Assembly (NCBI GenBank): GCA_035529075.1 | Contig: DATKXK010000006.1 | Span: 1 to 64,000, forward strand | Reading direction: 5' to 3' | DNA from: Acidobacteriota bacterium | GTDB lineage: Bacteria; Zixibacteria; MSB-5A5; GN15; FEB-12 | Length of the DNA: 64,000 bases | In this document: piece by piece, positions 2,861 through 43,842 of the stretch | How positions within the stretch are numbered: the stretch's first letter is position 1 | Layout of the letters: each line of letters starts with the position of its first letter | Translations under genes and position numbers: made by a program | The notes under the pieces: model-generated | The model's database searches: none | Told to the model about the DNA's origin: nothing | Seen by the model: the letters and a program-made list of their open reading frames with translations, nothing else

Positions 2861-3808
2861 ATGTCAGCAGGCGAGTCACAAGAGAACAAAGAAGGCATTC
2901 CGCGGGTTCGCTTCGGACCGATCCGATGGTTAACCACACCTCTTTACACGACTGTCGAAGAAGCGGTCTCTGAATACACCGGGCGTGCGTGGAGGATAAA
3001 GAGCGAAAAGGACTTTTCGGAGTTCGCCTGTCACCATGGCGCCATCGTATCGGATGGTTCGTTCGCTGTGTTTTTCAAATACAGCGAAGCGGCCGAGGCG
3101 AAGAGGCAGTTTGAGGTTGAGATATCAGACCTAAAAACTCTTTCGGAGAGAGCCGGGGTCCTGATACCAAAACCGATCGACATAGTAAGCGTGGAAAAGG
3201 GAACGCTGCTGATCATGGAGGCCCTGGAAGCCATCGCACCTGGCCCTCGTCAATGGAGACAAATCGGGACAACTCTGGCGTGTATCCATCGGGTGAAAGG
3301 TGCTGCCTGTGGTTTCGAAACGAACGGCTTTTGGGGTCCTCTTTATCAGGACAACACTGCTGTGTCGGATTGGGCGACTTTCTACAGGGAACGGCGTCTG
3401 TTTCCCTTGCTGAAGACGGCCATCAATTCCGGGAATATCCCTTTGTCCGTAGTTTCACAGGTAGAGATGCTGGCTACGCGCCTGCCGGCGTTGTGCGGCC
3501 CCGAGGTAACACCGACGCTGTTACACGGAGATGCGCAACAGAACAACTTCATAAGCACAGCAGAAGGAACCTATATCATTGATCCGGCGATCTACTTTGG
3601 TCACCCCGAGATGGACTTGGCACTTATTGACAGCTGGCAACCTGTACCAAGGGCCGTTTTTGACGGCTATCGGGAATCAATGCCAATTGACTCAGGATTC
3701 TCCGAGCGGCGCGACTTATGGCGTGTACCGCTCTATCTTGCCGCAGTCGCCCTTGAAGGTTCAATGCATCTGAACAGACTGACAAACGCTCTCAACACTT
3801 ACTTATAG
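2861..3808 (+). CDS. Fructosamine kinase-like protein (APH/protein-kinase fold)
   Basis: Predicted cytoplasmic small-molecule kinase, 315 residues from the ATG at 2861 (GTGAGG lies 10 nt upstream; TTG codons just before it sit too close to that site). The catalytic loop is LLHGDAQQNNF at about 220-230, followed by the metal-binding IIDPAIYFGHPEMDLA (239-254). The FWGPL and FYRERRLFP segments in the middle match the fructosamine-3-kinase/ketosamine kinase family. These enzymes phosphorylate sugar adducts or related amines; the true substrate here is unknown. The nucleotidyltransferase-like gene starts 2 bp after its stop, so the two are almost certainly co-transcribed. An aminoglycoside phosphotransferase-type activity is an alternative. 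Confidence 0.8.
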   Translation: MSAGESQENKEGIPRVRFGPIRWLTTPLYTTVEEAVSEYTGRAWRIKSEKDFSEFACHHGAIVSDGSFAVFFKYSEAAEAKRQFEVEISDLKTLSERAGVLIPKPIDIVSVEKGTLLIMEALEAIAPGPRQWRQIGTTLACIHRVKGAACGFETNGFWGPLYQDNTAVSDWATFYRERRLFPLLKTAINSGNIPLSVVSQVEMLATRLPALCGPEVTPTLLHGDAQQNNFISTAEGTYIIDPAIYFGHPEMDLALIDSWQPVPRAVFDGYRESMPIDSGFSERRDLWRVPLYLAAVALEGSMHLNRLTNALNTYL

Positions 3809-3810
3809 CT

Positions 3811-4659
3811 GTGCGCAGAAAAGACGTGAGTACGACGTCCAATACACCTTATCCTCAGCTAAATGCCGTTCTGCAAGAATTGGTGAGCAGTGTTCAGAAG
3901 ATTCTGCGTGAACACCTCGTCGGAGCTTACCTTCAAGGTTCTTTCGCAGTCGGAGATTTCGACGAACATAGCGATGCCGATTTCGTCATGGTGATCGTCC
4001 GGGAACTGTCGGAGTCCCAACTTCGAGATTTGCAGTCCATGCATGAACGCATCTTCAATCTCGGACCTGAGTGGGCGAAACACCTGGAAGGATCCTACTT
4101 TCCCAAGAAAGTCCTGCGTGATTATACACAAAGTGGTAGTGATTTATGGTATCTGGATAATGGAAGTTGCGTGCTTGTGAGGTCAAATCACTGCAACAAA
4201 ATCGTCGTCAGGTCGATTCTGTGGAAGAAGGGGGTTGTATTAAGGGGCCCGAAGCCGTCAACTCTGATCGAGCCGATCCCGGTTGCGGTCCTTCGCCGAG
4301 CGATTTTGGCGTCTATCAATGAATCGGGTCAGCTGATTCTCACCAATCCTGAGCAGTTCAACAATCGATTCTATCAGACGTTTATCGTCTTGCACTACTG
4401 TCGGAAATTGCACGATCTGCACACTGGTGTGGTTGGATCAAAGCGCTCTGGTGCCGAGTGGGCCAAGGACAATATGGAACAGTCGTGGTCAGGTCTTATC
4501 GATCGAGCGTGGGATGGAAGACCGAACCCGGCTGTTTCCGTTCGGCAACCGGCAGACAAAGCCGATTACAAGAGCACCCTGGAATTCGTTAGGGAAGTGA
4601 TTCGAGCAGCCAATAAATTCGCTGACTCAGAGAGGCTTCTAAAGGGAGAAAGTGACTGA
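3811..4659 (+). CDS. Aminoglycoside nucleotidyltransferase-like protein
   Basis: Protein of 282 residues with a polymerase-beta-type nucleotidyltransferase motif GSFAVGDFDEHSDADFVMV at 43-61 (GS followed by D-x-D, Asp55 and Asp57). The rest is helical, as in AadA/ANT-type enzymes and their DUF4111-like C-terminal domain. It would transfer a nucleotide to a hydroxyl or amine of a small molecule; whether that is an antibiotic cannot be told. The start is a GTG 2 bp after the kinase-like gene, with an in-frame alternative GTG at 3826; neither has a good ribosome binding site, so translation is probably coupled. A copy of the dispersed repeat lies 29 bp after its stop. Confidence 0.75.
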   Translation: MRRKDVSTTSNTPYPQLNAVLQELVSSVQKILREHLVGAYLQGSFAVGDFDEHSDADFVMVIVRELSESQLRDLQSMHERIFNLGPEWAKHLEGSYFPKKVLRDYTQSGSDLWYLDNGSCVLVRSNHCNKIVVRSILWKKGVVLRGPKPSTLIEPIPVAVLRRAILASINESGQLILTNPEQFNNRFYQTFIVLHYCRKLHDLHTGVVGSKRSGAEWAKDNMEQSWSGLIDRAWDGRPNPAVSVRQPADKADYKSTLEFVREVIRAANKFADSERLLKGESD

Positions 4660-38655: not shown

Positions 38656-39264
38656 TCACAGTCGCTCCAGGTGCCGCCGGTACTGCGCCACCATATCCTG
38701 ATCGTTGAGGCTGACGAATGACAGCGCGTAGTCCGGTACGTCGGCAAACGTCGCTTCTTCGAGGTACCTGACGTTCACCTCCCCGAGAAGATCCGGTAGA
38801 TAGCAGTTGTCCTGTGTGGCAAGTCGTTCTGCCGACGGCAGTATGGTCCGTCGGTAGACGGCGTGGAGCGGTTGCCTGATGCCGTCGATAAGCGGGATCA
38901 GTATGTCTTCATCGGCGGCCGCTTGCAGGACGGTTCGGATGGCCGCCGGTTTGATCAGCGGCATGTCGCAGCCACACACAAAAACAGCCGTCGAGGCGGA
39001 CCGGAGAAGACCGTTGTAGATTCCGCCCAGTGCTCCTTTGCCCGCAACGGGGTCCGGGTGGCTGTCCAGGCCGAGTTCCCGCAGCCCGGCCGTGTCGCCT
39101 CCGGCGATGATGACCTCGTCGAATACCGTGCGGAGTGTGTCGTAGACTATTCGAATCATCGGTCTTCCGCCGATGTCGAAAGTGCACTTGTCCTGACCAA
39201 ACCGCCGGCTCTGCCCGCCGGCCAGTATGACTGCTGTTCTTATGTTATCGCTCCCGTGTGTCAT
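38656..39264 (-). CDS. mobA: Molybdenum cofactor guanylyltransferase MobA
   Basis: 202 residues, cytoplasmic. The nucleotide-binding signature LAGGQSRRFGQDK is at 14-26 and the metal-binding VCGCDMPLI around 95-103, both characteristic of MobA, which joins GMP to molybdopterin. This provides the MGD cofactor needed by the formate dehydrogenase encoded 6 kb upstream. The start codon directly follows the stop of mobB. Last gene of the fdhD-mobB-mobA operon. Confidence 0.92.
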   Translation of the reverse strand: MTHGSDNIRTAVILAGGQSRRFGQDKCTFDIGGRPMIRIVYDTLRTVFDEVIIAGGDTAGLRELGLDSHPDPVAGKGALGGIYNGLLRSASTAVFVCGCDMPLIKPAAIRTVLQAAADEDILIPLIDGIRQPLHAVYRRTILPSAERLATQDNCYLPDLLGEVNVRYLEEATFADVPDYALSFVSLNDQDMVAQYRRHLERL

Positions 39265-39795
39265 TCAGGTCACAGTTACCGGCCGTAAGCGGCCGAGGTT
39301 GTCCGCGATGTGCTGTCCCAGTTCCTGCTCCCGCCCGTAGTCAAAATGCGGCAGGGCGTAACCGAACAGATCGGTCCCGTAGGTGGCCAGAAGCTCCGAA
39401 GCGGGGACGACGCCTGAATCCGAATACCCCGGCCGGCACACTTCGACCTTCAGGCCCGGGTTAGATTTCAGGCCTTCCACGAGCACGAGATCCACGTGAC
39501 GGTAAAACAGGCGGATGATGTCGTCCATGTTGGCCGGAGTGATATCGGCCCGGTTGAAATTGAAAGCAAACGAGCCGGTTCCGATTATGCCGGTGACGTC
39601 ACTGCCGGCTTCCATGTGCCGGTACGTGTCCTTGCCTTCGGTGTCCCAGTTGAAACGGTCGTGTTCGGTGTGTTTCAGAGTCCCGACCTGTATATCCAGC
39701 GCCTTGAGGACCGGCACGATCAGCTCGGCAAAGCGGGTCTTACCCGAGTTCTTGCAGCCGACGACGTGGAGGATTCTCGTCATGTCGCGGCTCAC
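39265..39795 (-). CDS. mobB: MobB-type GTP-binding protein for molybdenum cofactor synthesis
   Basis: 176 residues from the GTG at 39795 (overlapping the fdhD stop as GTGA) or 172 from the ATG at 39783, which gives the more family-like start MTRILHVVGCKNSGKT. P-loop GCKNSGKT at about 13-20. DLVLVEGLK is the MobB Walker-B-type motif. TLKHTEHDRFNWDTEGKDT is also typical. MobB assists MobA in making molybdopterin guanine dinucleotide. The C-terminal 40 residues (FGYALPHFDYGREQELGQHI) extend a little beyond the minimal domain. Confidence 0.9.
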   Translation of the reverse strand: MSRDMTRILHVVGCKNSGKTRFAELIVPVLKALDIQVGTLKHTEHDRFNWDTEGKDTYRHMEAGSDVTGIIGTGSFAFNFNRADITPANMDDIIRLFYRHVDLVLVEGLKSNPGLKVEVCRPGYSDSGVVPASELLATYGTDLFGYALPHFDYGREQELGQHIADNLGRLRPVTVT

Positions 39796-40553
39796 GGCGT
39801 TATCCGATCCACCCGGCCCAGAACGACCCGGTCCGGTCGGTTCAAGCGACCGACCACTGCGATCCCCGCGGCAGCGGCAATTTCAGCCGCCAGTGTCGTC
39901 ACCGACCTCTGTGACGTGACCACGGGCACCCCGGCCCGCGCCGATTTCAATACCATGTCCGATGAAACGCGGCCGGAGGTAGCCAGAATCGCCGCGCCAA
40001 AATCGACGCCGTGGAGCAGGCCGGCTCCGATTGCTTTGTCGACGGCGTTGTGCCGTCCGACGTCGAACCCCATGGGCCAGGCCGACGGATCGTCTCCCGT
40101 CACGAGTGCCGCACAGTGCACGCCCGGACCTCCGCCCCGCGATGCCAGTTCCCTGAACATCATCGACATGATACCCGGCAGCCGCCCGGCGCTGATCGTG
40201 AGAGGCGAAGTCAAGGGGACGAGGTCCCTGAGGTATTGCGATGACTCGATCCGGCCGCCGCCGCAGCCCGTCGGCGTGACCAGAGAAGCCGGGGAAGGTT
40301 GTGACGGCACCGGCGTGGAGAGACAAACGCTGATATCCGGACTGCCGTCGCAGGAGGCCACCCCGAGCGTGTCGATCTGGTCAGGACCGTCTATATACTC
40401 CTGGCAGAACAGCCAGCCGACGGCGAATTCCTTGAGGTCGCGCGGCGTGCACAGAAGATGCGAGAAGAACCGGCCGTTTAGAAACAGCCGGACCATTTTT
40501 TCCTCGGGCAACTGGCCTTTCTGAATCACGCCGAATTCTCCATTGTGGGGCAT
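39792..40553 (-). CDS. fdhD: FdhD sulfurtransferase for formate dehydrogenase maturation
   Basis: 253 residues. Family motifs: LCTPRDLKEFAVGWLF (35-50), GVHCAALV, DVGRHNAVDKAIGAGLL (substrate-binding region), ATSGRVSSDMVLKSARAGVP. FdhD passes sulfur from IscS to the molybdenum cofactor of formate dehydrogenase. The usual CxxC of the mobile loop is reduced to one Cys: the sequence is TPTGCGGGRIE, with Gly at the second Cys position. Start of the fdhD-mobB-mobA operon. The assignment is firm; whether the single-Cys form changes the mechanism is open. Confidence 0.9.
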   Translation of the reverse strand: MPHNGEFGVIQKGQLPEEKMVRLFLNGRFFSHLLCTPRDLKEFAVGWLFCQEYIDGPDQIDTLGVASCDGSPDISVCLSTPVPSQPSPASLVTPTGCGGGRIESSQYLRDLVPLTSPLTISAGRLPGIMSMMFRELASRGGGPGVHCAALVTGDDPSAWPMGFDVGRHNAVDKAIGAGLLHGVDFGAAILATSGRVSSDMVLKSARAGVPVVTSQRSVTTLAAEIAAAAGIAVVGRLNRPDRVVLGRVDRITP

Positions 40554-40673: not shown

Positions 40674-41300
40674 TCAGGTCGACGGCCGTTCGGCAGGCAG
40701 GGTGAAAAACGACCTGAAACAAAACAGGAACCACAGGGCCAGGGGCAGGAAGGGATCGACTATCCGCCGGTTGAACTCGAGCGCCCACATCCAGAACCAG
40801 TGCCAGTTGTAGCTGTAGCTGACATACCTCGCGTAGTCCTGCTGAAGATCTTTAACCAAAATCCAGCGCGTGTTCTTGGCGAAAATGAACAGGTCGCATA
40901 TGTGCCACAGAACAATCAACAGCGGCGCGATTAACAGGAAGCGCCACCGTGCGGGAGGTTTGATGAAAACGACGGTGGCCAGGAAAAGCGCCGCCCACAG
41001 GCTCAGGTTGTACGAGACGGTGTCCGTCGGCCTGTTGCCGGGCAACTCAAACATCTGGTCGCGGCCGTACGCTCCGCCCACGGTTATCCGGGCCGCAACT
41101 ACGAAGTCGCCGCGGTCGACGGTGATACGGTAGGACGTGTCCGCCGACTCAAACGCATTGGTGACGGTCTGCGAGACGGACGCCAGAAAGCGGCTGTAGG
41201 CCGGCAGTGCTTTCCCCCAGAGCCACCCCACGGGTATGTAGAGTACCAGGAAGATGACCAGAACGAGTATGATCTTAACCGGTCTTGACAAATTTCTCAT
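40674..41300 (-). CDS. Exosortase H-associated membrane protein (putative)
   Basis: About 208 residues from the ATG at 41300, overlapping the end of the exosortase gene by 26 bp; an ATG at 41324 would add eight residues. About four transmembrane helices: VKIILVLVIFLVLYIPVGWLW near the N-terminus, then a periplasmic stretch of about 70 residues (YRITVDRGDFVVAARITVGG), SLWAALFLATVVFI, RFLLIAPLLIVLWHICDLFIF, and a last one near LPLALWFLFCFRSFF. Proteins of this shape are encoded directly after exosortase H in several genomes, to my recollection. Its job is unknown; position makes a role in sorting likely. Confidence 0.65.
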   Translation of the reverse strand: MRNLSRPVKIILVLVIFLVLYIPVGWLWGKALPAYSRFLASVSQTVTNAFESADTSYRITVDRGDFVVAARITVGGAYGRDQMFELPGNRPTDTVSYNLSLWAALFLATVVFIKPPARWRFLLIAPLLIVLWHICDLFIFAKNTRWILVKDLQQDYARYVSYSYNWHWFWMWALEFNRRIVDPFLPLALWFLFCFRSFFTLPAERPST

Positions 41301-41832
41301 ACCACAGGTACCAGAACGCGGCACCGAGCGCGATTATGACGAACTCCCACACGTACAGGTGCATGGTGTCAAACAGGAACGCGGAGGATGTGCCCGCATA
41401 CCAGAGGGTGAGGATACGGACGTAGTTGAGGAACATGATCAGTATGACGGCCAGTGTCAGGCCGATCAGTTTCGGACGCCAGCGGGCGGGAAAGGCGATA
41501 ATACCGGCCAGCACGATGGCCAGCGCGTAGATGCCGTTGCAGCCCTCCGCGATGTTGACGCCGAACTCCGGGCTGTGAACCGACGTGCCGCCGGAAACAA
41601 CGCCGTTGTCTCCCATCAGCCTGAGAAACGCAGCCGAGGACCAGGCAAGGAACTCGTTGAGCGGCATGATTACTTTGAAGTATACGGCCGGTATCATGAG
41701 GATACTGAAAATGACCACCAGCGTCAGGCCGAACCAGAGGTATATCCGAAACAGCGGCCAGTTGGCCTTTATGATGTGCCGGAGCCGCCCGGGGGACGGG
41801 CGTGGTTTCGGCCTTCGTTTCCTCTTTGCCAT
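41275..41832 (-). CDS. xrtH: Exosortase H (IPTLxxWG-CTERM-type)
   Basis: 185 residues from the ATG at 41832, preceded by GGGAAAGG; upstream in-frame starts at 41868 and 41874 are possible. A basic N-terminus is followed by five or so transmembrane helices. The exosortase active-site residues are all present: Cys98 in AEGCNGIYAL, Arg139 in LNYVRILTLWYAG, His158 in MHLYVWEF. Exosortases are inner-membrane transpeptidase-like proteases that cleave C-terminal sorting signals and pass the protein to a surface anchor. The short length and the IPTL-CTERM protein three genes upstream identify the H subtype. Confidence 0.88.
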   Translation of the reverse strand: MAKRKRRPKPRPSPGRLRHIIKANWPLFRIYLWFGLTLVVIFSILMIPAVYFKVIMPLNEFLAWSSAAFLRLMGDNGVVSGGTSVHSPEFGVNIAEGCNGIYALAIVLAGIIAFPARWRPKLIGLTLAVILIMFLNYVRILTLWYAGTSSAFLFDTMHLYVWEFVIIALGAAFWYLWYEKFVKTG

Positions 41833-42003
41833 GCCGCCTTTCCCGGTGTGCCGCGTAGAACGTGCCATAGGCAATTAACGCACCATAAAGCCTGCACACA
41901 AGAGGTCAGAGACAGGCCGTCCGGATATGGGGAATCCGGGCGACCCGACGGGCCACCCGGATTTCCTGTTTAACAAGGCAGACAAGACACGGCACACCGG
42001 CGG

Positions 42004-42195
42004 TCAGTCTCCCGGAGTGATCCACAGGTGGGCCATGTATGCCAGCATTGTGGCGCTTATGAGTGTCCCGACGACGTCACGCAGGGGCACGGAACTGGAA
42101 ACCAGAAAAGCTATGGCCAGCCCTATGACGGCCAGGCCCAGCGTAACCGCCAGCACCTTCCAGAAGACGTCGGGAACAAACAGCCGACCGTACAT
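42004..42195 (-). CDS. Small two-helix membrane protein in the exosortase locus
   Basis: 63 residues, starting 2 bp after the stop of the IPTL-CTERM gene. Two transmembrane helices (FWKVLAVTLGLAVIGLAIAFLV and VGTLISATMLAYMAHLWI). No family recognised. Tight spacing between substrate and exosortase genes argues that it is real and belongs to the system. Confidence 0.6.
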   Translation of the reverse strand: MYGRLFVPDVFWKVLAVTLGLAVIGLAIAFLVSSSVPLRDVVGTLISATMLAYMAHLWITPGD

Positions 42196-42197
42196 GG

Positions 42198-43058
42198 CTA
42201 TGCGTTCGCCTTAGCTATGACCGTCCGGCGCTGCCTGACCACCACCGTGATGACGGTCAGGACGAGCAGCGCGAAAATGATCAACCCCCACTCGGAGAGG
42301 GTGGGGATGGGGGCCAGGTCCGGCAAGGTGAGCCCCACGCGTGGGCCGGCTGCCCCGTCCTCGAGACCGAACGTGATAGTGGCTGGGGAGGAAAGCAACC
42401 ACGCGTTGGTGGCATTCTCCCAGTCCAGTGCGACGACAGTATCCTCGACCCTGGTCACGACAAAGCCTGCACTCGTAAGCGAGTCCTCCAGCATGGTCGC
42501 CGCCTCTGTTGGTGTGGCACCCGAAGCGAGGGTGGCCGTAACGGTATGCTCATTCAACGTGAGCACGAGGGTGCCCGGATCCGTGACATCAGCATTCGGC
42601 AGGGCGCAAACCCACTCGAATATCCTCTCGCCCGGTATTGCCTCGGATACTGCAAAGCTAGCGTCGACGTACGTGTCGTAATCGAGCTGGTTGTCCTCTA
42701 TGTCGACCATACTGATGGGGTCTTTAGGTTCCGTGCGGCCCGTGATGTTGATGGCGTTGTCGCCATTGGCTTCAGCCTCCCAGCCCTCGTCCGTCAGATC
42801 CGTGAGGATCAGGTTTCGGGCCTGCTCCTCGGTCAGTCCCTGAACATAATGGATCACATTGTATGTTGTCCCGTCTTCGCTTACCGCTGTCACGGTTATC
42901 GTCATCCCTTCCGGAGCTACTTCGCCATAGAAGTGCAGGCTATAGCTGCCGGTCTTGGCTTCAGCCTGCTGGGAAAGCGCGGTGAAACTGGCAAACAACA
43001 GGGCGACAAAGACAACAAGTATCCAGAGAGTTCGATTCCCGTTTTGTCCATGCCTCAT
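42198..43058 (-). CDS. Exported protein with IPTL-CTERM sorting signal
   Basis: 286 residues from the ATG at 43058 (GAGGAG 9 nt upstream; a longer frame reaches 43109 without a site). Signal peptide 1-34 (WILVVFVALLFASFTALS). The mature region is acidic, strand-rich and of unknown family, with a repeated pattern of LTEEQARNLILTDLTDEGWEA (about 78-98) and ATPTEAATMLEDSLTSAGFV (about 187-206). The C-terminus is a textbook IPTL-CTERM: IPTLSEWG at 251-258, a hydrophobic helix LIIFALLVLTVITVVV, then RQRR. It should be the exosortase H substrate. It is the only such signal seen in the window. Confidence 0.88.
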   Translation of the reverse strand: MRHGQNGNRTLWILVVFVALLFASFTALSQQAEAKTGSYSLHFYGEVAPEGMTITVTAVSEDGTTYNVIHYVQGLTEEQARNLILTDLTDEGWEAEANGDNAINITGRTEPKDPISMVDIEDNQLDYDTYVDASFAVSEAIPGERIFEWVCALPNADVTDPGTLVLTLNEHTVTATLASGATPTEAATMLEDSLTSAGFVVTRVEDTVVALDWENATNAWLLSSPATITFGLEDGAAGPRVGLTLPDLAPIPTLSEWGLIIFALLVLTVITVVVRQRRTVIAKANA

Positions 43059-43152
43059 AAGAATATTCTCCTCTGTGTATCCCCGGTCGACGAGACGCGC
43101 CGGGAACACATCGGTTTAATTGCTAAACGTTGTTACATTAGCAGTCGAAGCT

Positions 43153-43842
43153 TCAGCCGGCGAGCGGAGGCCCGCGAGGTTGCAAGGGCAACAGATATTG
43201 GTTTCGCAAACACGCGGGCATATCTGTTTCCGGCAGGCGTGGAGCCACTGCGCAGCCTTTCAGCAGGCGCAACGCGGCACCCCTCACACATATTGCCTCG
43301 GCCAGTGAAAGCAGGAGCGCGTTGACGTAGACGATCAGGAAGGCCACAAAGCCGTACCCGAGCGAGCCTGCGACCATCTGCAAAAACCGGTTGTGGCCAT
43401 GCTCTACCGGAACCAACCCGTGGCTTAAACCAGCCGGCTCAAGCGCCAGCACAACAACTATCCAGCCGAGCGCTATGGCCAGCGGGCTGAACCCGAAACG
43501 ACGTGTGAAGAACGCCCCCAAATATGTGTACACGGCCGGGATCGTCGTCAGCATGACAAAACCTGTCAGCGACGGAGAAATCACGGTGTTGTCAAACAGC
43601 GTGGAGAAGAGAAAGAGGCTGCTACCCCAGACGGCGCCGCAGTAACCGGCCTTGCGCGGACGCAGAAATCTGACCGCGATTACCAAAGGAGCGAAACTGA
43701 TCCAGGCCAGCCACGGATGCGCAGGAGATGCGACGGCAAGAGCCATCGTACATCCACCTGCCACCGCTGGCAGGTAGCGCACGGCCCTGAAGACGAACTT
43801 AATAGATAACTGTACCCTTGCCCTGTCGGCAGCGACAGTCAC
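43153..43842 (-). CDS. Lnt-like multi-pass membrane protein lacking the nitrilase domain
   Basis: 229 residues from the GTG at 43842 (GGGGGGAG 6 nt upstream). Six or so transmembrane helices with the features of the N-terminal membrane domain of apolipoprotein N-acyltransferase (LAWISFAPLVIAVRFLRP, LAIALGWIVVVLALEPAGLS, GYGFVAFLIVYVNALLLSLA). The carbon-nitrogen hydrolase domain that carries the catalytic Glu-Lys-Cys in Lnt is absent. It is the first gene of the minus-strand run ending with the exosortase-associated protein, so it may have a part in lipid or anchor handling there. The C-terminal 25 residues look unstructured. Role is inference. Confidence 0.65.
   Translation of the reverse strand: MTVAADRARVQLSIKFVFRAVRYLPAVAGGCTMALAVASPAHPWLAWISFAPLVIAVRFLRPRKAGYCGAVWGSSLFLFSTLFDNTVISPSLTGFVMLTTIPAVYTYLGAFFTRRFGFSPLAIALGWIVVVLALEPAGLSHGLVPVEHGHNRFLQMVAGSLGYGFVAFLIVYVNALLLSLAEAICVRGAALRLLKGCAVAPRLPETDMPACLRNQYLLPLQPRGPPLAG

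Follow-up and report, generated by a model that had tools for sequence, protein, structure and literature searches.

Organization of the exosortase H locus

We analyzed an exosortase H (XrtH) gene cluster encoded on the minus strand of contig DATKXK010000006.1 of assembly GCA_035529075.1 (Acidobacteriota bacterium, placed in the Zixibacteria by GTDB), with emphasis on the gene at its upstream end, which encodes an Lnt-like membrane protein and a candidate translation-arrest motif. The window analyzed comprises positions 1 to 64,000 of this contig (64,000 nucleotides), and the genome to which it belongs amounts to 3.04 Mb in 21 contigs; comparisons were made with a phylum set of 132 Zixibacteria genomes and an order set of 80 genomes. 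A first-pass annotation had claimed five minus-strand genes at 40674-43842, and all five open reading frames (ORFs) were found in our analysis. From upstream to downstream, the features of the locus are:

43153..43842, minus strand: orphan LNT_N membrane protein with six predicted helices, the proposed arrest-peptide sensor (PF20154; Lnt fold; family of about 60 genes)
43165..43176, minus strand: Arg225-Gly226-Pro227-Pro228, candidate ribosome-arrest motif (family conservation; motif chemistry in PMC10951233 and PMC12992588)
43059..43152, minus strand: spacer separating the Lnt-like stop codon from the start of the substrate; it contains a stable hairpin and the ribosome-binding site (RBS) AGAGGAG (sequence, RNA fold and start assignment)
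42198..43058, minus strand: secreted substrate of the exosortase, carrying a signal peptide and IPTL-CTERM (TIGR04174; RBS; signal peptide)
42213..42314, minus strand: IPTLSEWG sorting signal, membrane helix and basic tail (TIGR04174; tail search of the genome)
42004..42195, minus strand: 63-residue two-helix protein (comparison with the relatives G054, G057, G110 and G113)
41275..41832, minus strand: XrtH from Met15 of the longest ORF, with C98, R139 and H158 (TIGR04177; alignment)
40674..41300, minus strand: associated membrane protein, overlapping the end of XrtH (46-63% identity to four relatives; structural model)

The Lnt-like gene most likely starts at the GTG at 43842 and the substrate gene, judging from the RBS AGAGGAG and the signal peptide that follows, most likely at the ATG at 43058; both assignments correct those of the first-pass annotation, which also overlooked the C-terminal RGPP sequence of the Lnt-like protein. 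Promoter and terminator scans revealed nothing that explains the layout of the locus.

An orphan LNT_N family with a C-terminal R[A/G/S/V]PP motif

The Lnt-like protein of the window (231 amino acids) matches the LNT_N domain PF20154 (28.4 bits; cut-off 27.1) and, in agreement with its original description, no nitrilase domain was found in it, TIGR00546 reaching 9.8 bits against a cut-off of 132.9. Its structural model (predicted local distance difference test, pLDDT, 84) adopts the membrane fold of Lnt, and the 19 best PDB matches are all Lnt, with modest scores. A profile built from four copies detected relatives in 30 of the 132 phylum genomes, and a 36-row profile extended the family to about 38 of them, with about 60 orphan LNT_N genes, a count that excludes true full-length Lnt. 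In a few members the called gene is longer, reaching 359 amino acids when the first start codon is used.

The motif R[A/G/S/V]PP is present in all 56 complete members of this family (30 RAPP, 23 RGPP, 2 RSPP and 1 RVPP), against a single occurrence among 584 other ORFs of comparable length from the same loci. Apart from its R, P and P, no residue is invariant across the family. One short ORF that lacks it (L114, 914-1577) is the second frame of a gene that bears the motif in its other part. Between 0 and 24 residues follow the motif among the 56 complete members. The wobble bases of the motif codons differ among members, indicating that selection acts on the protein; a nucleotide-level origin of the tail, as an anti-Shine-Dalgarno-like CACCTCC, was ruled out on the same grounds.

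Counting from a conserved Asn of the last helix to the Arg of the motif gives 48 residues in 49 members, with six members at 49 and one at 47 (standard deviation 0.34), a spacing that roughly corresponds to the ribosome tunnel plus the translocon. The linker that keeps this length is near-random in sequence, with a mean pairwise identity of 10% versus 28% in the membrane domain, and the N-terminal length is variable (standard deviation 23), as is the length past the motif. The positive-inside rule predicts that the tail is cytoplasmic (C-in).

RAPP and RGPP are known ribosome-arrest motifs (PMC10951233, PMC12992588). In ApdA and ApdP the Arg is irreplaceable, Gly is at least as active as Ala, and Ser (Val in ApdP) is partly active (PMC12992588); the residues found at the second position in the Lnt-like family (A, G, S and V) are the same set that gives full or partial arrest in these two proteins. 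RAPP/RGPP proteins are typically short, bear a localisation signal, have their motif close to the C-terminus and are encoded ahead of sec, TonB, copper and Dsb genes. In monitors with a C-in helix the spacer is short and falls within a narrow range, with a median of 54 for MifM (PMC10987492), and force profiles show that a helix no longer pulls once about 45 residues separate its C-terminus from the catalytic centre (PMC7886326).

Lnt-like genes lie directly upstream of exosortase substrates

Pairing of family members with sorting tails revealed a same-strand tail 305-1864 nucleotides downstream of 49 of 60 family members, and two added pairs, one in G078 (L051) and one in G036, where the tail is cut by a contig end, bring this number to 51. 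With six copies left out of the evaluable set on account of contig ends or a run of N, 51 of 55 evaluable Lnt-like copies are immediately followed by a gene for a secreted protein with an IPTL/VPSL-type tail. Among downstream genes whose start was assigned, nearly all show a good RBS and encode a signal peptide.

At the level of genomes, almost all that carry the Lnt-like family also carry a short exosortase (two-by-two counts 37/1/14/80 over the 132 genomes; Fisher 5e-20, phylogeny not corrected). These counts include two genomes assigned by hand; without these two assignments the values are 35/3/14/80 and 3e-17, likewise with phylogeny not corrected.

The exosortase, its substrate and the accompanying genes

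The longest ORF of XrtH (41275-41874) matches TIGR04177 with 93.6 bits (cut-off 86), and the Cys98, Arg139 and His158 reported previously are present in the sequences EGCNG, NYVR and MHLY when numbered from Met15 of the listed ORF. The tail of the substrate scores 25.5 bits with TIGR04174 (cut-off 20.5) and also passed PF18203; the N-terminus was judged by eye to be a signal peptide. The check for further IPTL-CTERM tails suggested by the first-pass annotation identified this tail as the sole one in the genome, so that the idea of XrtH having a single co-encoded substrate holds here; it does not extend to relatives, which have up to 18 such tails. Two of these (G114 and G115) have 18 and at least 12 IPTL/VPSL tails, respectively, with one Lnt-like gene each, and thus represent multi-substrate systems in which some tails end proteins of more than 1,000 residues. 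The genome of the window also contains one other exosortase, a long one of the EpsH type (G000 contig C11:87762-88520; L002, L063), and three PEP-CTERM tails over cut-off, located elsewhere (C1 and C11).

XrtH was detected in 24 of the 80 genomes of the order. Its three close relatives (57-64% identical) are accompanied by the associated membrane protein, which is well conserved in five genomes only, including that of the window (46-63% identity in the other four). A contig scan with this protein retrieved four assemblies, three of them Zixiibacteriota and the fourth labelled FCB group. Its model has four helices and a small three-stranded part (pLDDT 84), for which no confident PDB match was obtained, and the protein matched no NCBIfam family. 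Directly downstream of the exosortase cluster lie genes for MobA, MobB and FdhD (molybdenum cofactor; 38656-40553, minus strand), with no functional link seen.

The order Lnt-like gene, substrate, XrtH and associated protein recurs in G054 and also in G057, where it extends over two contig ends that overlap; in G055 it is substrate, XrtH, associated protein and Lnt-like gene, and in general the Lnt-like gene tracks substrates and not XrtH.

Three genomes (the window genome, G110 and G113) encode the two-helix domain of the 63-residue protein as a gene of its own, and in two (G054 and G057) it is fused behind the IPTL signal. In the window, its ORF begins two bases past the stop codon of the substrate, in a different frame. 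This position, together with the single fused ORF of G054 and G057, is what would be seen if a sequencing or assembly frameshift had broken one fused gene. In G110 and G113, which belong to another family, the two-helix ORF is likewise separate; it directly follows the IPTL gene, and its start codon abuts or overlaps the stop codon of that gene. Because of this separate ORF in both genomes, we regard a frameshift as very unlikely and the split between the substrate and the 63-residue ORF as most likely natural. Membership of the domain in the "midcut" family NF033207 was considered and rejected (29.5 bits for the window and 20.0 for the fused G054 relative, against a cut-off of 45). A relative of the 63-residue protein also occurs alone, away from IPTL substrates, beside a heavy-metal ATPase gene in G114 and G115 (L195:5245-5466 and L196:5019-5258).

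A membrane-integrated arrest peptide as the probable function of the Lnt-like gene

We consider it likely, on the basis of these sequence comparisons, that the product of the Lnt-like gene is a translation-arrest peptide integrated in the membrane, which controls the exosortase substrate encoded next. It is the motif and its spacing that argue for a stall; control of the following gene is what we infer from it. According to this model, the ribosome would stall at RGPP, with Pro227 expected in the P-site, while the 48-residue linker would span the ribosome tunnel and the last helix would be located at the translocon. Membrane insertion or folding of this helix may then pull the chain and free the stall, which slow insertion, or an absent partner or lipid, would lengthen. 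The stalled ribosome, which in most loci would be 56-220 nucleotides ahead of the start of the substrate gene, could alter expression of the substrate gene, with the duration of the stall setting its level. Candidate routes include remodelling of the spacer RNA, transcription-translation coupling, holding of the mRNA at the membrane near XrtH, and RNA folds missed by energy models. The substrate would subsequently be exported and then cut at the IPTL signal by XrtH, as family knowledge predicts.

Several observations weigh against this interpretation. RNA folding of 38 loci did not support unmasking of the RBS by the stalled ribosome (0.093 versus 0.079 in shuffles, p 0.6), and the spacer is modestly structured (mean z -1.0; p 0.09 versus an in-gene control). 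Approximately two thirds of the sorting-tail genes lack an Lnt-like gene immediately before them, suggesting that the device is common and not obligatory. In addition, four copies, all from one genome (G033), precede giant secreted proteins without a sorting tail, which may possibly correspond to a second target class. These giant proteins have more than 1,100 residues and begin around YPPSGYDV, and one of them has a terminal dockerin-like repeat (L173, G033:C1:176500-192000; L039, minus strand, around 3737-4456).

The first-pass annotation had suggested instead, from the Lnt-like membrane domain, that the cleaved protein is passed to a lipid or another anchor. An elaborated form of this idea, in which the Lnt-like domain is an XrtH partner that binds a lipid or other acceptor for the cleaved substrate and the RxPP tail docks another protein in the cytoplasm, would account for the true LNT_N fold, for the linkage to substrates (one copy per substrate) and for the co-occurrence with short exosortases. 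Nevertheless, the family tracks substrate genes and not XrtH, it has no catalytic domain, and its most conserved feature is the putatively cytoplasmic R[A/G]PP at a fixed distance from the helix; moreover, a docking tail needs no random-sequence linker of 48 ± 1 residues, and the residues permitted in the motif fit ribosome arrest. For these reasons we find the original proposal unsupported and regard the docking version as unlikely, while noting that arrest and hand-off may each hold in part, because a sensor released from arrest could go on to perform a function. It could also be argued that the RxPP tail, being near the C-terminus in all members, is a degradation or localisation tag unrelated to the ribosome. 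The distance to the C-terminus, however, varies from 0 to 24 residues while that to the last helix is fixed, and the reverse would be expected of a tag recognised from the end, which leaves this explanation with almost no plausibility.

More tentatively, translation arrest by the Lnt-like family could be a phylum-wide strategy based on a folded, lipid-enzyme-like sensor, whose pulling force would report insertion, or the availability of exosortase or of a lipid acceptor, and would dose each substrate, with one sensor per substrate. Such a system would be the first known translational feedback for a sorting enzyme.

Relation to known systems

Our literature search retrieved no report of translational control of exosortase substrates, no paper pairing "arrest peptide" with "exosortase", and none pairing "translation arrest" with "apolipoprotein N-acyltransferase"; the words "sortase" and "acyltransferase" are absent from the main text, supplements apart, of the 2024 and 2025 arrest-peptide surveys. 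Known arrest peptides are found mainly upstream of genes for export machinery, metal-related genes and Dsb genes. Hence the motif is known, and the sensor domain and the target class are new. If the proposed function is true, the natural 48-residue ruler from the last helix to the stall site would make the family well suited to studying how multi-pass membrane proteins release arrest by force. The proposed function would also imply that orphan "Lnt-like" annotations can conceal regulators and that the family offers a route to finding exosortase substrates.

The closest known systems are the RAPP/RGPP arrest peptides (ApdA, ApdP, ApcA and CruR; PMC7897499, PMC10951233, PMC10987492, PMC12992588), with which the Lnt-like family shares R[A/G]PP near the C-terminus, a localisation signal, a length of less than 300 amino acids and a position directly upstream of a same-strand target. 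It differs from them in that the sensor is a folded six-helix LNT_N domain, the target is an exosortase substrate and unmasking of the RBS is not supported. MifM, the YidC monitor of Bacillus subtilis, is likewise a C-in helix membrane protein with a short, near-constant spacer to its arrest site; its arrest sequence is unrelated to that of the Lnt-like family, however, and its target is the insertase gene yidC2. With Lnt itself (apolipoprotein N-acyltransferase), the orphan family has in common the fold of the membrane domain, whereas it lacks the nitrilase domain, has approximately 230-290 residues instead of 500-540 and carries the R[A/G]PP tail in addition. Finally, the exosortase and the sorting signal of the window resemble those of the exosortase H/IPTL-CTERM/"midcut-by-XrtH" systems (TIGR04177, TIGR04174, NF033207), and the IPTL signal is internal in the fused relatives; unlike in those systems, the two-helix domain of the window falls outside NF033207 and is accompanied by a membrane protein that lies outside the NCBIfam families.
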